A stretch of DNA of 64,000 nt from Ignavibacteria bacterium (GTDB lineage Bacteria; Bacteroidota; Ignavibacteria; Ignavibacteriales; SURF-24). Below, one piece after another: positions 2,717 to 20,330 of this stretch (the stretch's first letter is position 1; every line of letters begins with the position of its first letter). The stretch spans positions 1-64,000 of the forward strand of contig JAAXKN010000009.1 in assembly GCA_025612375.1 (NCBI GenBank), written 5' to 3'. Below the pieces are notes generated by a model that was not told the origin of the DNA, did no database searches, and worked only from the letters and a program-made list of their open reading frames with translations. Both the position numbers and the translations under genes were made by a program.

Positions 2717-2945
2717 ACTCCGGAATGGAATAAAATGCCTTTAAAAAGTAAATTAATATCTGATTAAATAACTCTTTGGATCTTTTGTGGGGAATCAGTA
2801 ATTTAATTCAGGAACAACGGGGGCATAGCAGTCAGATGGACTTTTCAAGTAAAATACCAGAAAAAAAAGCGGTTGTTTATCTGGTGCTCTTTCCTTTCTT
2901 ATGCTTAATCTTCGTTATGGAGTGAATTATGGCACAAAATCCCTA

Positions 2946-3023
2946 CAAGCCGCTCCTCCGGAGCTCTATGGGTGGGGGTGAGGCTGCCATTGTCTACAGA
3001 CAAGTCGTACCTCCGGTACTCTT
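2946..3023. repeat. Two-hairpin intergenic repeat, copy A
   Basis: This 78-bp element aligns without gaps to 10010-10087. It has two tandem units. Unit 1: flank ACAAGCC, stem GCTCC (2952-2956), loop TCC, stem GGAGC (2960-2964). Unit 2: flank GACAAGTC, stem GTACC (3007-3011), loop TCC, stem GGTAC (3015-3019), then TCTT. The middle 27 bp are poorly conserved. Compared with copy B the stems differ at several positions, always with compensating changes. It lies between two minus-strand genes. The design resembles REP-type palindromes in outline, but I cannot assign it to a named family from sequence alone. Confidence 0.7.
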
Positions 3024-8215: not shown

Positions 8216-9973
8216 TTAAATTTCAAAAGAATCGAAGTTTTCCAAAGTATCCTTTATGAATTTAAGGAATTTTCCGCCCAGCATACCGTCTACAAGACGG
8301 TGGTCGTGGCTGAGGGATAAATAGAGCATGTGTCTTACTGCAATAGTATCAGTACCGTCGACTTCTAGAACGACCGGCTTTTTGGTAACAGTACCGACTC
8401 CCAGGATTGCGACTTCCGGCTGATTGATAATAGGCGTACCGAAGAGTGTTCCAAAAACGCCATAGTTGGTAATGCTGAAAGTGCCCGAGGAAATATCATC
8501 AGGAGTCAGTTTTTTAGTTCTGGCTTTATTACTTAAGTCAGCAATTGCCCTTGCCAGTCCAACAATGTTCTTTTCGTCAGCATTTTTAATATTCGGAACA
8601 ATTAACCCGTTAGGCTCCACCGCGACGGCAAAACCGAGGTTAATGAACCTTTTTAGTACAATATTAGTGCCATCAATTGTGGAATTCAGGTACGGATACT
8701 CTTTTAATGCTTTAATGCAGGCATAAGCAATAAATGACATATACGTAAGCTTGATATTTTCTCTTTTTAGGAAATTATCTTTATTGTTTTTGATAAAATT
8801 GTGAATTTTTGTCACATCTGCCTCCACAACGGCAGTTACATGGACAGACGTATCGCGGCTTTTAACCATGTGGTACATGATTTTCTGCCGTATGTTATCC
8901 ATTGGAATCATTTCTGTGTTTCCGCCTACTGGTGCAGGCTGAGGCAATGGAGCAGAGGGCTTTGGCCTTTCCCGTTCCTCCGGGGCTTTTGAGTAGTAGG
9001 CAGCATGGGGCTCCTGCCTAATCTCTTCAGCCGTTAAGGCGCGAGGCCTTGGGGCTTCAGTCTTTCCCCTTTTAGAAATATAGTCGAGGATATCCTTTTT
9101 TGTAACACGTCCTTCGATGCCTGAGCCTTTAAGTCTGTTTAATTCATCAAAGCCGACGTTTTCTTTCTGTGCGATATTGAGGACCAAAGGAGAATAAAAC
9201 CTACCTCCTGATGTACCCATTCCTTCGGGTGCTCTTTCCGTTGGGGGTTCCTTATAGTACTCAACGACGGTTCCTGCCTCCTTTACAGATTCTTCGATCA
9301 GGGGGGCCGGAGTCTGGACCTCATCTTTTACTGGCGCTACAACAGGCTCTTCAACTCTTTCCCGTGCTGACTGTTGAACAACTCCTCCTGTAGTTGAAAT
9401 TCTGGCTACAATTGTGCCCACTGAGACGGTCTCCTGTTCCTGAACCAGGATCTCGGCAAGGACGCCGTTTTCGGGAGACGGGATTTCAGTATCTACTTTA
9501 TCTGTACTGATCTCAAAAAGGGTCTCATCTTTTTTAACCGTATCGCCCGGCTTTTTATGCCATTTGATTATTGTGCCTTCCATGACGGATTCGCCCATCT
9601 TGGGCATTGGTATATCAACGAGGCTTCCTCCTGCCTGTTTGGTGGAAGGAGTTTCCTTCTGCTGAGGCCTGGACACAGGCTGAGGGGGTTCTGCCGGGGG
9701 CTGCGGCTGCGCCGGGGCAGGCACGGCTTTGGAGGCCTCGGTTTCAATTACAGCCACCACGGTATCCGTCTGGACAGTTTCCTGTTCAAAGACCCTGATT
9801 TCGGAAAGGATTCCGTCTGCCGGGGAAGGTATTTCGGTATCGACCTTATCTGTAGAAATCTCGAAAATGATCTCGTCTTTTTTAACGGTATCCCCCTGCT
9901 TTTTATGCCATTTTATAATTGTGCCTTCGTTGACACTCTCCCCCATTTTAGGCATAACAACATCAATTTTCAT
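8216..9973 (-). CDS. 2-oxoacid dehydrogenase E2 (dihydrolipoyl acyltransferase), two lipoyl domains
   Basis: This is the core acyltransferase of a lipoate-dependent 2-oxoacid dehydrogenase complex (585 aa). Lipoyl domain 1 spans about residues 1-78 (lipoyl lysine K43 in 'STDKVDTEI') and lipoyl domain 2 about 120-195 (K159, same motif). Pro/Ala/Glu-rich linkers follow, then a peripheral subunit-binding domain at about 258-297 ('SPLVLNIAQKENV') and the catalytic domain from about 355. The catalytic motif 'HDHRLVDG' is at about 556-563. The two lipoyl domains are near-duplicates. The pairing with an alpha-beta fused E1 suggests a branched-chain-type complex rather than SucB, but substrate is inferred. 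The start has GAGGG upstream. A repeat element sits in the spacer to E1. Confidence 0.92.
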   Translation of the reverse strand: MKIDVVMPKMGESVNEGTIIKWHKKQGDTVKKDEIIFEISTDKVDTEIPSPADGILSEIRVFEQETVQTDTVVAVIETEASKAVPAPAQPQPPAEPPQPVSRPQQKETPSTKQAGGSLVDIPMPKMGESVMEGTIIKWHKKPGDTVKKDETLFEISTDKVDTEIPSPENGVLAEILVQEQETVSVGTIVARISTTGGVVQQSARERVEEPVVAPVKDEVQTPAPLIEESVKEAGTVVEYYKEPPTERAPEGMGTSGGRFYSPLVLNIAQKENVGFDELNRLKGSGIEGRVTKKDILDYISKRGKTEAPRPRALTAEEIRQEPHAAYYSKAPEERERPKPSAPLPQPAPVGGNTEMIPMDNIRQKIMYHMVKSRDTSVHVTAVVEADVTKIHNFIKNNKDNFLKRENIKLTYMSFIAYACIKALKEYPYLNSTIDGTNIVLKRFINLGFAVAVEPNGLIVPNIKNADEKNIVGLARAIADLSNKARTKKLTPDDISSGTFSITNYGVFGTLFGTPIINQPEVAILGVGTVTKKPVVLEVDGTDTIAVRHMLYLSLSHDHRLVDGMLGGKFLKFIKDTLENFDSFEI

Positions 9974-10009
9974 TTCATCCCTCTTATAAATATTTATTCA
10001 ATAAAAGTG

Positions 10010-10087
10010 CAAGCCGCCCTTCCAGGGCTCAAAAAATTGTGGGAGACATGTTCTTTTCTACTGACAAGTCATCCCTCCGGGATTCTT
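10010..10087. repeat. Two-hairpin intergenic repeat, copy B
   Basis: Gapless 78-bp counterpart of 2946-3023. Unit 1: GCAAGCC, stem GCCCT (10016-10020), loop TCC, AGGGC (10024-10028). Unit 2: GACAAGTC, stem ATCCC (10071-10075), loop TCC, GGGAT (10079-10083), then TCTT. All four 5-bp stems of the two copies are perfectly paired though their sequences differ. This copy lies inside the operon, in the 138-bp spacer between the E1 and E2 genes, so it is expected to be transcribed as part of the mRNA. Confidence 0.7.
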
Positions 10088-10111
10088 TAGCTTAGATCCT
10101 CCTCATCTGAT

Positions 10112-12208
10112 TTAATAAGCCAGAATTTCCTTTAATGATTTATAGATCCTCTGCCTGGTCGGGAGGACCGTATTCTCGAGGTTCGGGTGATACGGTACGT
10201 GTGTATCCATGGCTGCAATTCTTTTTACAGGCCCGTCCAGGTACTGGAAGCATCTGTCGGCAATGCGGGCCGCAATTTCGGCACCGAAGCCCCCGGTCAG
10301 CATATCCTCATGCACAATAACGGCTTTACTGGTCTTTTTAACGGATTCAAAAATCGCATTTTCATCCAGCGGGTTAATTGTACGGATGTCAATTAACTCA
10401 ACCGAGTAGCCCTCTTCTTCCAGTTTGGAAGCCGCAAAATTCGATTCGTGCACCATTGCGCCGTATGTAATAACGCTTACGTCTGTTCCTTCCCTTACAG
10501 TCCTGGCCTTGCCGAAAGGAAGAAGGTAGTTTGCATCGGGTTCAGGCACGGTTGAATAGCTCTGGCGGTAGAGCCCCTTATGCTCCAGGAAAAGGACGGG
10601 GTCATTCAGCCTTAAGGCAGTCTTAAGAAGCCCTTTTGCATCGGCGGCATTTGAAGGGTAAGCTATGTATAGCCCCGGCATATGGGCAAAGAAGCCTTCA
10701 ATATTCTGGCTATGGTAAAGACCGCCATGAATAAAGCCCCCTACTGCCACGCGCGTTACGACGGGAGCCTCCCAGAAGTTATTTGAGCGGTAGCGGTATG
10801 TAACCATTTCATCGCGGAACTGCATGAATGCGGGCCATATATAGTCCCCGAACTGGATTTCCACTACGGGCTTAAGTCCCGAGAGTGCCATACCTATAGC
10901 AACACCCACAATGCTTGCCTCGGCAAGAGGCGAGTTAAAGACCCTGTCAGTTCCGAACTGCGTGGAAAGGCCTTTTGTTGCAGAAAAGACGCCTCCTTTG
11001 AGGTCTGCCACGTCTTCGCCGAAAAGGTAGATCTTATCGTTTCTTTCCATTTCCTCTCGCAGAGCGTGGTTAATTGCGTCAACCATCACGACGGGCTTTC
11101 CGGAGGGCTTGGTTTTCTCGTAGTCCAGGCGGTCTTTTTTGCCGCTTTCGTCGTAAACGTAATGGGCCGCGGTTTCAGCTTTCGGGTCGGGGCGGCTCAT
11201 AGCCCAGACCGAGGCCTCCTCGATATGGTTATTGACCTCTTTTTTCAGCTCGTTAAAGGCAAGTTCCGTAAGGACGCCTCTTTTTATTAAAAACTGTGAG
11301 AACTTTTCAATAGGGTCACGTTTTGAGTCCGTTTCTATTTCCAGGAGGTCGCGGTATTTTTTCTGGTCGTCAGAAGATGAATGGGAAAGGAGCCTGATGC
11401 ATTCGGCTTCAATTAAAGCGGGGCCTTTGCCCTGTCTTGCGTACTTAAAAGCCGTCTGAGCCGCGGCATGCATGGCAAGGAAGTCGGTTCCTTCCACTCT
11501 TAGCCTGAGCAGGTTTTCATAGCCTTTCATCATCTCGGAAATTGAGTTATCCTTTCCTCCCGACTGCTGGCTTACGGGTACAGAAATGGCGTATTTGTTA
11601 TTTTCAATTACAAATACTACCGGGAGCTTTTCTCGGCTTGCCCAGTTGACGGCCTCGTGGAATTCACCCTGGCTTGTTGTACCTTCGCCGCTTGAGACGT
11701 AGACCACGGCGCCTGAGTTTGTGCGGACACTGGCAAGGGCTGTTCCAACGGCCTGAAGGAACTGTGTTCCTGTTGGGCTTGACTGTGTGGGGATATTGAA
11801 CTCCTTATGGCCCCAGTGGCAGGGCATCTGGCGCCCTCCGGTCATAGGGTCATCAGCCTTAGCCAGCATAGCCAGGAAGACCTCTTCTGGTTTAATTCCC
11901 ACGGCCAGTGAGAACGCCAGGTCGCGGTAGTAGGGATAAGCCCAGTCGAGTCCTTTTCTCATAGCTAGGCCGCAGGCCACCTGAACTGCCTCATGGCCTG
12001 CTCCGGCGATATGGAAAAAAGACTTCCCCTGTTTAAGCAGGGTCATTGATTTCATGTCGATCTGCCTGGAGGTATACATCAGCCTGAGGGCGTTCATAAG
12101 CTCGTCCTTTGTAAGCCCTCCAAAGGTATCGCTCTTACCGGTCGGGCCTTCCGGTTTAATCTCGGCATCAACTATATTATCAGCAACTATGACATCTTTT
12201 TTAGTCAT
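10112..12208 (-). CDS. 2-oxoacid dehydrogenase E1, alpha-beta fusion (branched-chain type)
   Basis: This is the thiamine-dependent decarboxylase of the complex, 698 aa, with alpha and beta parts in one chain. The alpha part (about residues 25-360) has the TPP motif 'SSGEGTTSQGEFHEAVNWAS ... ENNKYAIS'. The beta part (about 371-698) starts 'KPVVMVDAINHALREEM' and has 'FGEDVADLKGGVFSATKGL' and 'FNSPLAEASIVGVAIGMAL', as in BCKDH/PDH E1-beta. Single-chain alpha-beta E1 proteins are known in Bacteroidota, often annotated as 2-oxoisovalerate dehydrogenase. SD-like AGAGGG precedes the ATG. The substrate is inferred. Confidence 0.9.
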   Translation of the reverse strand: MTKKDVIVADNIVDAEIKPEGPTGKSDTFGGLTKDELMNALRLMYTSRQIDMKSMTLLKQGKSFFHIAGAGHEAVQVACGLAMRKGLDWAYPYYRDLAFSLAVGIKPEEVFLAMLAKADDPMTGGRQMPCHWGHKEFNIPTQSSPTGTQFLQAVGTALASVRTNSGAVVYVSSGEGTTSQGEFHEAVNWASREKLPVVFVIENNKYAISVPVSQQSGGKDNSISEMMKGYENLLRLRVEGTDFLAMHAAAQTAFKYARQGKGPALIEAECIRLLSHSSSDDQKKYRDLLEIETDSKRDPIEKFSQFLIKRGVLTELAFNELKKEVNNHIEEASVWAMSRPDPKAETAAHYVYDESGKKDRLDYEKTKPSGKPVVMVDAINHALREEMERNDKIYLFGEDVADLKGGVFSATKGLSTQFGTDRVFNSPLAEASIVGVAIGMALSGLKPVVEIQFGDYIWPAFMQFRDEMVTYRYRSNNFWEAPVVTRVAVGGFIHGGLYHSQNIEGFFAHMPGLYIAYPSNAADAKGLLKTALRLNDPVLFLEHKGLYRQSYSTVPEPDANYLLPFGKARTVREGTDVSVITYGAMVHESNFAASKLEEEGYSVELIDIRTINPLDENAIFESVKKTSKAVIVHEDMLTGGFGAEIAARIADRCFQYLDGPVKRIAAMDTHVPYHPNLENTVLPTRQRIYKSLKEILAY

Positions 12209-17155: not shown

Positions 17156-19501
17156 ATGAGGCCAAAGGTTTTCAGATCCACAATAGTAATATTTCTCTTC
17201 TCAATAGCTTTCTGCTTTACAGGGGAACTGCAGGCACAGGGAATTAACCATACAGTTTCAGGTTTTATAAAAGACAGGACCACGGGTGAATTTCTTTCAG
17301 GTTCAAGCGTACTTATCTACCGTGACAGCCTGAGTTTTTCCAATCCCCCTTTAAGAGGCTCCACTTCAAACCAGTACGGTTACTTTGCCATTCCAAATGT
17401 CCAGTCCGGAAAATTTCTTTTAGTTGCCCGGCGCCTCGGATACAGGCCTTTGATAAAAGAGTTACCGGCAGGTGGCAAAGAGCCCGTAATCAGGATCGAT
17501 CTTGAGCTGGAGCCGCAGGATATAAGGCTTCAGGAGGTAGTGGTAAAAGGGAAAAAAAGCGAATCGGGTGAAGTCAGCTCCGTAGACGTCTCTCCCGGGC
17601 TTTTAAGCCAGCTTCCCTCTTTGAGCGGTGAAATTGACCTGTTCAGGAGCCTGCAGATGCTGCCGGGCCTGACGCAGAACAATGAGCTTTCTTCAGGGCT
17701 TTACGTAAGGGGCGGCAGCCCGGATGAGACCCTGACACTTCTTGACGGAGTAGTTGTTTACAACCCCTCGCATCTTGGGAATTTTGCAAGCACCTTTAAT
17801 TCTGATGCCCTGCAGAACGTAAGGCTTATAAAAGGGGCCTACCCGGCTGAATACGGGGGAAGGCTTTCGAGCGTTCTGGACATTAAGCTCAGAAGCGGCT
17901 CCAGGGATAAGCATAAAGGCATACTTGGCCTTGGCATTATAAATTCGCATCTGACGCTTGAAGGACCGATGGATGATAATTCCACGTACATTTTATCAGG
18001 CAGGAAAATGTATTATGATGCTTTTCAGAAGATGACAGATAAAAACGGCATGGCGCCTAGATACAATTTCTACGACATTAATTCAAAGTTTTCATTCAAT
18101 GCCTCGGGAAACGACATTGTTTCTTTGAGCGCACTTTTAAGCCGTGACCAGATTTACAGCTCCCCTTCCAACCAGGTGAACTATGATATACAGTGGCAGA
18201 ATGCAATTGTGAGTCTGAACTGGTCGCAGGTGCTTTCAAATTCCAGGTTTTCAAATACCTCTTTTAGCTACGTCAGCTACAATTTCAAATCTATTCTGGA
18301 CGACACTACGAGCAGGGTAACTACGTCTGACTATTATTCGTCGTCTGAACTACAGGACCTGGTATTTAAGAAGGATGTGGAATTTTATCTTTCTGAAAAC
18401 AACCTGGGGAAGCTGGGGCTGGATTTATCGCTGCACGATTATAAGCTGATTTACAGCGACGTCTACAGCGAGCTTATTGAAAGGAGCCTGGGAAATGAAA
18501 AGGAAATTATGAACTTTGAGGCTGCGGTTTACCTTCAGAGCGAGTGGCAGGTCAGCTCCCGCTTTAAGCTTAGTCCGGGCTTAAGGTTATACTATTTTAA
18601 CGACCAGAAGAAGCTTAAGTATGAGCCCAGGCTTTCCATGGCCTACAGCCTTACGGATGAGGCCACAATAAAAGGGGCATTTTCCGTTACGAACCAGTTC
18701 CTGCATATGATAGTAAGAAACGACATATCGCTTCCGACGGATCTCTGGTATCCATCGACCAACAGGGTTGAGCCATCAAGCTCAAGGCAGTATGTACTGG
18801 GGGTGGATTCATATTTCTGGCAGAAAGAGTATTTCTTCTCGGTTGAAGGATACTATAAGGATATGAAAAACCTGTATGAATTTAAGGACAACGCGCGTTA
18901 TAACCCGCAGAGCACGGTTGTGGACCTGTTTACAAAAGGAAACGGTGAGGCCTACGGGGTGGAGTTTTTCTTAAACAAGATCTCGGGAGATCTCTCGGGA
19001 TGGATCGGATACACTCTTTCATGGACGAGAAGAAAGTTTGACGAGCTTAATGCAGGACAGATATTTTATCCGAGGTACGACAGAAGGCACGACATATCTG
19101 TCCTTGCAGCCTATAAGATTTCCGAAAGCCTGACATTCAGCCTGACATGGACCTTTGCAACCGGGCAGGGCTACACGCTTCCGGTAAGTCAGTACCAGAT
19201 CGGGTCGATTGACCTGGACCCGAACAAAAGAGTGCAGTTTGATTATACTGCCAGGAACGCCTATAAGCTGCCGGACTACCACAAGCTGGACCTGAATGTA
19301 ACGTACAGGTTTTATTTGAGTGAGCTGCAGTTAGAGACGTACCTGAATATTTATAATGTATATGACAGGAAAAATCCATTTGCCTATTACGCCTCGGACG
19401 TTGAAAAGCCGACCCCGGAAGGAACAGTATCGCTTCCAAAATTCCATTCCATTACGCTGTTCCCTTTTCTGCCTACTGTGGGCGTAACATTAAAATTTTG
19501 A
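17156..19501 (+). CDS. TonB-dependent receptor with carboxypeptidase-regulatory domain (781 aa)
   Basis: Outer-membrane receptor: signal peptide (about 1-28, ending LQAQG), carboxypeptidase-regulatory-like domain (about 32-115, 'TVSGFIKDRTTGEFLSGS'), plug (about 125-230, with 'GLYVRGGSPDETLTLLDGV' and 'FNSDALQNVRLIKGAYPAEY') and barrel ending in 'GVTLKF', the aromatic C-terminus expected of outer-membrane barrels. It leads a three-gene unit with a DUF4249 lipoprotein and a tandem-rhodanese lipoprotein. TonB receptor plus DUF4249 is a recurrent pair in Bacteroidota whose substrate is not established. GGAAAG lies next to the ATG and AGGA slightly further upstream. Confidence 0.88.
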   Translation: MRPKVFRSTIVIFLFSIAFCFTGELQAQGINHTVSGFIKDRTTGEFLSGSSVLIYRDSLSFSNPPLRGSTSNQYGYFAIPNVQSGKFLLVARRLGYRPLIKELPAGGKEPVIRIDLELEPQDIRLQEVVVKGKKSESGEVSSVDVSPGLLSQLPSLSGEIDLFRSLQMLPGLTQNNELSSGLYVRGGSPDETLTLLDGVVVYNPSHLGNFASTFNSDALQNVRLIKGAYPAEYGGRLSSVLDIKLRSGSRDKHKGILGLGIINSHLTLEGPMDDNSTYILSGRKMYYDAFQKMTDKNGMAPRYNFYDINSKFSFNASGNDIVSLSALLSRDQIYSSPSNQVNYDIQWQNAIVSLNWSQVLSNSRFSNTSFSYVSYNFKSILDDTTSRVTTSDYYSSSELQDLVFKKDVEFYLSENNLGKLGLDLSLHDYKLIYSDVYSELIERSLGNEKEIMNFEAAVYLQSEWQVSSRFKLSPGLRLYYFNDQKKLKYEPRLSMAYSLTDEATIKGAFSVTNQFLHMIVRNDISLPTDLWYPSTNRVEPSSSRQYVLGVDSYFWQKEYFFSVEGYYKDMKNLYEFKDNARYNPQSTVVDLFTKGNGEAYGVEFFLNKISGDLSGWIGYTLSWTRRKFDELNAGQIFYPRYDRRHDISVLAAYKISESLTFSLTWTFATGQGYTLPVSQYQIGSIDLDPNKRVQFDYTARNAYKLPDYHKLDLNVTYRFYLSELQLETYLNIYNVYDRKNPFAYYASDVEKPTPEGTVSLPKFHSITLFPFLPTVGVTLKF

Positions 19502-19517
19502 GGTCGTGAAAATTAAC

Positions 19518-20330
19518 ATGAAAACAACTGGGATAATATCATTTTTAGCAATTGCTCTTCTTTCTTTTGCGGGCTGCGAGAAGACAGAGACACTGGAGCC
19601 GGACAGTATTTATAAGGAAAAGACGGTTGTATTTTCATCACTTAAGAGCGATTCCCTCTTCCAGGGGGTGACATTTACACGGACGCTTCCACTTAATACT
19701 GAATTTGATATTAAAAAAGCTGAGCTTAAGGATGTTACGGCATACCTGAAAATTAACGGGGTTAGTATCATTCCGATTATTTATACTGCAGACGGCATTT
19801 ATAAGCCCAGGGATCTGATGATGATCCATTCGGGAGATGTGTACGAACTATTTGCAAAATACGGCGAGAAAAGCATTTATGCACGCACCAGGATCCCTGT
19901 AAAACCTTCAGTTTTCAGTGCCACACTTGTCAACAGCAAGTATATTGAGGCCAGGATTGCCCCCAGGGAAAATGAGGCTTATGCCGCAGCCTGGTTCATA
20001 ACAGGCGCAAATCAGTATTCCTATTCAGGCCTGGCGACAGACTTTTTCGAGGTATATAAGACTCCTGAAAATCCGCCGGCAAGTGTATCAATAAGAACGA
20101 TGGACATTCCAGAGGATTACAGGACAGATAATCTGGCCGGCAAAACATACTTAAAGGTAATTTCCTTTGACAATGGGTTTTACGATTACTTCAGAACCAG
20201 GGGTAACAACCAGCAGGTCCATAACTCATTTACGCAGGGAGGAAGCCAGGTTATCTGGAATGTTTACGGCACAGATGTTATAGGAATGTTTATCGGAAGC
20301 GCCTCGGGGGAACTTGTTAAACCAAAATGA
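19518..20330 (+). CDS. DUF4249-family lipoprotein
   Basis: Predicted lipoprotein that partners the TonB receptor encoded just upstream. From ATG 19518 the N-terminus is a lipoprotein signal with lipid-attachment cysteine C20 ('LLSFAGCEK'). The frame can also start at GTG 19506, which has GAGG only 3 bases before it. The body (270 aa) shows the DUF4249 pattern: 'KTVVFSSLKSDSLFQGVTF', then 'GDVYELFAKYGEKSIYARTRIPVKP', a beta-rich protein. DUF4249 proteins are known almost only from Bacteroidota and relatives beside TonB receptors, so a surface-exposed binding role is likely but unproven. Confidence 0.75.
   Translation: MKTTGIISFLAIALLSFAGCEKTETLEPDSIYKEKTVVFSSLKSDSLFQGVTFTRTLPLNTEFDIKKAELKDVTAYLKINGVSIIPIIYTADGIYKPRDLMMIHSGDVYELFAKYGEKSIYARTRIPVKPSVFSATLVNSKYIEARIAPRENEAYAAAWFITGANQYSYSGLATDFFEVYKTPENPPASVSIRTMDIPEDYRTDNLAGKTYLKVISFDNGFYDYFRTRGNNQQVHNSFTQGGSQVIWNVYGTDVIGMFIGSASGELVKPK

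Follow-up and report, generated by a model that had tools for sequence, protein, structure and literature searches.

The REP/RAYT systems (class 2 TnpA-Y1; REPtrons, REPINs/BIMEs) are built of short, dispersed, mostly intergenic palindromes that form inverted clusters, with a Y1 HUH transposase gene located between inverted copies and a separate repeat type for each enzyme. In E. coli, the REP enzyme cleaves single-stranded REP DNA at CT dinucleotides on the 5' or 3' side of the hairpin; what REP enzymes read is the tetranucleotide together with loop or stem irregularities (PMC8266576). Classical REPs are defined by a 5' GT[AG]G tetranucleotide at the hairpin foot, and only some class-2 and class-3 Y1 enzymes are associated with REP-like structures (PMC6006769). 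Quentin et al. 2018 (PMC6006769) give the enzymes of TnpA-Y1 subclass 1.2 a length of about 148 aa and list them with REP 'no' and generally without IS200-type terminal structures; their hairpin search required a GT[AG]G foot.

The window, a stretch of 64,000 nucleotides that was analysed as a whole, contains two copies, A and B, of a two-hairpin repeat that shares with the REP/RAYT systems all of the organizational features named above. Its 5-bp stems also resemble those of the Marinomonas REPs, which lie 2 nt from GTAG (PMC8266576). Unlike a classical REP, the repeat has no GT[AG]G at the hairpin foot. Instead, a CTAY tetranucleotide stands 9 nt away on the 5' side of the stem, which is 5 bp long and closes a 3-nt loop, and the enzymes of the repeat contain YxxxQxxHH where classical RAYTs contain YxxxNP. 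We infer that the repeats work like REP/RAYT. Without the GTAG foot, however, they are not classical REPs, and without YxxxNP the enzymes are not classical RAYTs; we class the elements as REP-like repeats of subclass 1.2. With CTAY 9 nt ahead of the stem, these hairpins would presumably escape a search that requires GT[AG]G at the foot.

Likeness to subclass 1.2 extends to the motifs DH[IV]H, WQ, and YIxNQxEHH, a length of about 150 aa, a low number of diverged gene copies, and hosts in the Bacteroidota. The system differs from the published description in that inverted cognate hairpins enclose the genes and the hairpin family of the genes on contig C16 is dispersed. IS200/IS605 elements (IS608, ISDra2) share the transposase family, supply the nearest PDB relatives and, by analogy, also have a hairpin near a cleavage-type tetranucleotide. 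However, their subterminal hairpins lie on the same strand while those described here are inverted, and here there are many gene-less hairpin copies and no near-identical multicopy insertion sequence. In the literature searched, neither GCTCCTACGGAGC, which papers outside that search may mention, nor a combination of Ignavibacteria, IS200, and REP was found.

Anatomy and dispersal of the repeat

Copies A and B and their surroundings comprise the following features, with positions given in the window.

2917 to 2944, + strand: sequence to the left of copy A, with homology to the region 5' of the Y1 transposase gene on C16 (ATGGAGTGAATTATGGCACAAAATCCCT)
2945 to 2967, + strand: copy A unit 1, inner type, without CTACAG upstream, ACAAGCC-GCTCC-TCC-GGAGC-TCT
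2994 to 3022, + strand: copy A unit 2, outer type, CTACAG-ACAAGTC-GTACC-TCC-GGTAC-TCT; the hairpin unit proper, without CTACAG, is 3000-3022 (+)
8216 to 9973: 2-oxoacid dehydrogenase E2 gene, adjoining the copy B spacer
10000 to 10108, unstranded: E2-E1 spacer holding copy B, between 2-oxoacid dehydrogenase genes
10009 to 10030, + strand: copy B unit 1, inner type, GCAAGCC-GCCCT-TCC-AGGGC-TC
10058 to 10086, + strand: copy B unit 2, outer type, CTACTG-ACAAGTC-ATCCC-TCC-GGGAT-TCT; the hairpin unit proper, without CTACTG, is 10064-10086 (+)
10112 to 12208: 2-oxoacid dehydrogenase E1 gene, adjoining the copy B spacer

The repeat is real as the sequence-only reading described it: all four 5-bp stems pair perfectly, all four loops are TCC, and the tandem spacing, claimed to be about 55 bp, is 55 bp in both copies. 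The starts given as 2946 and 10010 are in truth 2945 and 10009, one base to the left. The proposed flank ACAAGyC stands as CAAGYC, common to all four units, without its first A, as copy B unit 1 starts with GCAAGCC. The CTACAG (copy A) or CTACTG (copy B) that precedes the second unit of each pair had been overlooked.

Window positions 2917-2967, comprising the left flank and unit 1 of copy A, match L103:3168-3218 over 51 bp at 96% (BLASTN), and the left flank also matches C16:17982-18017 at 97%. Its resemblance to the sequence 5' of the C16 gene (the 51-bp alignment) makes copy A most likely the remaining half of an element that bore a transposase gene. Copy B has the look of a half-element that landed between two genes of an operon.

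Allowing one mismatch, the pattern ACAAGTCNNNNCTCCGNNNNTYT has 65 matches in the 5.23-Mb genome versus 2 for a reversed control pattern. The first reading had named a lack of further copies genome-wide as telling against it; the genome stretches examined hold about 81 units in 35 clusters. A unit reads ACAAGTC, then the first arm of a 5-bp stem, the loop TCC, the second arm, and finally TCT. CTACAG or CTACAA precedes the outer unit (unit 2), and the inner unit (unit 1) usually has a T-rich run there instead. The tandem pairs often combine into inverted clusters. A full cluster spans about 190-200 bp, with units 2 and 1 pointing left followed by units 1 and 2 pointing right, so that the outer units are outside. 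In the stretches examined, 33 of 35 same-strand spacings are 52-58 bp, and 8 of 11 facing pairs are 51-62 bp apart from start to start. By a crude ORF call, 31 of the 35 clusters are not within an ORF; the remaining four fall within short ORFs (about 130 codons or fewer), which may be spurious. The genome search did not find the family on the largest contigs, C1-C6. Several copies sit near contig ends (C8:52, C37:53, C77, and C89), so an assembly broken by the repeats is a likely reason for this gap, rather than a biological bias.

A second hairpin subfamily, CTACAAACAAAGC-GCACC-TCC-GGTGC-TTAGTGATTGCGT and variants, forms inverted pairs about 300 bp apart at L098 (G000:C8:57387 - / 57699 +) and at G000:C14:83347 - / 83656 +, and is also present on C16, C22, C39, C47, and C51. 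Its tail, TTAGTGATT, resembles the tail of the hairpin that flanks the C30 transposase. Variant units carry a perfect 14-bp palindrome in place of ACAAGTC, for example CTACAGATCAGCCGCGGCTGACC-TCTCCGAGG, at L103 2440-3460, L095 2640-2900, L104 2330-3300, and L118 2480-2720. A small tandem repeat, GTCGGAC / GTCGGACCTTTTCCTCAT, adjoins a single hairpin unit at L321 ~19440-19520 (G000:C14:47.9 kb).

Stem covariation and the same-genus relative

Pairing was assessed on matches picked by the 13-nt flank alone, with the stem unused for selection; 29 of these have no mismatch. Watson-Crick pairs occupy 120 of the 145 stem cells; when the 3' arms were shuffled 10,000 times, the mean was 73 and the maximum 95. 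The compensatory stem change proposed from copies A and B is thereby borne out, with flank-selected units pairing far above shuffles. Among the 54 members with a three-base loop, which include a few from a sister subfamily, stem positions 1 to 4 each have more than one Watson-Crick pair type, and position 2 has C-G, T-A, and G-C.

The same-genus relative G001 contains 14 matches to the outer-unit pattern, and its closest gene, for a similar enzyme, lies between inverted hairpins in the same architecture. At C14:36.7 kb, an orthologous cluster is present in both genomes. As we read the alignment, the stem of one unit is GCCTC/GAGGC in the first genome or the second and GCCCC/GGGGC in its counterpart; a further unit has not changed, and still others pair imperfectly. 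Loss of both the pairing and the TCC loop in relatives, which the sequence-only reading had named as telling against its proposal, is thus not what this cluster displays; it mostly stays paired with its stem bases changed. Copy B is missing in G001, where the E1-E2 spacer measures 52 bp versus about 108 and contains no recognisable hairpin unit. Its site there holds another short sequence, and the comparison with G001 yielded no clean filled/empty pair with exact ends. The surroundings of copy A are not syntenic in G001, and the comparison at C14:47.9 kb is ambiguous.

Y1 transposase genes between inverted hairpins

The genome encodes the matching Y1 HUH transposase that the first reading had recommended looking for, in genes flanked by the family's hairpins. 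Eight Y1_Tnp (PF01797) loci score above the cut-off, one of them broken. Every one of the eight has inverted CTAC-N9..11 hairpins of its own sequence type on its flanks; the C30 gene sits so close to the end of a contig that its upstream side alone is visible. The flanking CTAY hairpins are on the - strand upstream and on the + strand downstream of the gene. On C16, a pair of genes with 95% identity carries on its flanks the hairpin family of copies A and B; the two loci have 825 bp in common at 84%, and the homology stops within the outer hairpins on both sides. The other gene copies in the genome are 45-61% identical. The broken gene, which runs across reading frames at L137 (G000:C91:1-2158), still has its own hairpins, CTACTAAGGTTACG.

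The enzyme matches the IS200/IS605 model NF033573 (79.9 bits, cut-off 55), while its 37 bits against the RAYT model NF047646 fall below the NCBIfam cut-off of 80. The nearest solved structures in the PDB are IS200/IS605-type transposases, including that of IS608 (ISHp608). The enzyme motifs are DHxH, WQ, and YIxNQxEHH; the C5 transposase deviates, with DHMH and QEEFH. By their DH[IV]H, WQ, and YxxxQxxHH motifs, the predicted enzymes are TnpA-Y1 subclass 1.2.

CTAY-hairpins are also concentrated close to 80 related genes from Bacteroidota, Verrucomicrobiota, Planctomycetota, Acidobacteriota, KSB1, Poribacteria, Neomarinimicrobiota, and others. These genes encode proteins with a median length of 153 aa, and DHxH is found in 73, WQ in 78, YxxxQxxHH in 75, and YxxxNP in none of the 80. 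CTAY-hairpin density is 2.54/kb upstream (- strand) and 2.05/kb downstream (+ strand), versus 0.13/kb farther out, at 1.5-2.4 kb from the gene. A CTAY-hairpin lies upstream in 59 loci, downstream in 52, and on both sides in 36. The distance from CTAY to the stem has a sharp peak at 9 nt, and in 53 cases CTAYAAACA is followed by a stem that begins exactly 9 nt from CTAY and closes a 3-nt loop; 24 different stems were seen. Upstream and downstream flanks of the same gene have an identity of 0.79, versus 0.61 between different genes; none of 10,000 shuffles reaches 0.79.

Within the phylum, the general hairpin pattern is present in 41 of 198 genomes, with almost no control matches. A transposase match at E<=1e-50 occurs in 23 of the 41 pattern-bearing genomes and in 31 of the 157 others (Fisher p ~1e-5, a test that ignores kinship and so overstates independence). 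Co-occurrence is not strict, as 14 of the 41 have no transposase match at E<=1e-20. Same-layout CTACCAACAT hairpins occur in G075, G087, G060, and G121, which have no subclass-1.2 match at E<=1e-20; a different Y1 subclass, 2.6 for example, may serve these hairpins. In G170, another genome of the phylum, six hairpin units lie head to tail, 50 bp apart (G170:C1:2702990-2703267), near the Y1 gene G170:C1:2702396-2702845. Tandem hairpin arrays with 50-71-bp spacing flank genes in L193, L210, and L220.

Probable mobilisation in trans and rival explanations

Copies A and B are very probably REP-like non-autonomous repeats mobilised in trans by the subclass-1.2 Y1 HUH transposase that is encoded twice on C16, and within that system they are most likely half-elements. 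In single-stranded DNA, such as the lagging-strand template, each unit would fold into its 5-bp hairpin. The putative substrate is single-stranded CTACAGACAAGTC-hairpin DNA. The enzyme would recognise its fold, together with the loop of 3 nt and the 13 conserved nucleotides of the flank, but not the letters of the stem. A stem recognised in this way would be free to drift while staying paired. The enzyme would then cut near the CT of CTAC and move or copy the element. CTAY and its distance of 9 nt are fixed, the loop is nearly so, and the stem covaries freely; by analogy to REP enzymes, this suggests such binding to the folded hairpin and cutting near CTAC. Homologous recombination or gene conversion could also spread copies without the enzyme.

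One rival, rather unlikely, takes the hairpins simply for the termini of an ordinary IS200/IS605 insertion sequence, and A and B for solo ends or MITE-like remnants. The enzymes do exceed the NCBIfam cut-off for IS200/IS605 transposases, and homology between the C16 loci stops at the outer hairpins, as if gene and hairpins had moved together. However, the flanking hairpins are inverted rather than on the same strand, the gene copies are few and, apart from the 95% pair, diverged while hairpin units are many, and PMC6006769 sets subclass 1.2 apart from IS200 as lacking IS properties. Chance resemblance of two short palindromes has a negligible probability: a loose two-mismatch pattern is modestly enriched in the window (19 versus 7.8 expected), but the 65 versus 2 matches genome-wide and the covariation test refute this explanation, and the multi-phylum context also stands against it.

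Retention as RNA stem-loops (an mRNA stabiliser, processing site, or terminator), with mobility secondary, is improbable. Secondary roles of this sort have been hypothesised for classical REPs (PMC3733652), and they would suit clusters that lie mostly outside ORFs, 13 in a co-directional and 8 in a convergent setting. But the 5-bp stems have no consistent T-run, the hairpins occur in both orientations, and their tie to Y1 genes extends across several phyla. No Rfam match at gathering score falls on the repeats, with only four tRNAs found in the window; the folding energy of the 87-88-nt copies is not better than that of shuffles; and terminator-like sites are not in excess over shuffles. Among the three meanings originally offered for the repeat, the REP-like mobile palindrome is supported by the dispersed, mostly intergenic copies and by the Y1 genes that these hairpins flank; RNA processing found no support in the Rfam, folding, and terminator scans.

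The preferred reading, mobilisation in trans by the subclass-1.2 enzyme, has a more tentative extension, rated slightly below an even chance. Subclass 1.2 and the CTAY-N9-hairpins may form a separate multi-phylum REP-type system that recognises its DNA by a different layout, a CTAY resembling a cut site 9 nt ahead of a 5-bp hairpin. The tandem pair may then be the minimal mobile element and its hairpins the two unlike ends. Within the pair, the inner unit lacks the CTAC that the outer unit carries.

Subclass 1.2 genes of several phyla lie between matching hairpins, contrary to their published 'no REP' listing, which would extend REP-type systems to the branch next to IS200 itself. The enzymes thereby gain a predicted substrate, the CTAY-N9-5-bp hairpin, and the covarying stems suggest which parts of that hairpin the enzyme reads. 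Mobilisation by these enzymes would also account for an intergenic hairpin found in 41 of the 198 sampled genomes of the phylum.
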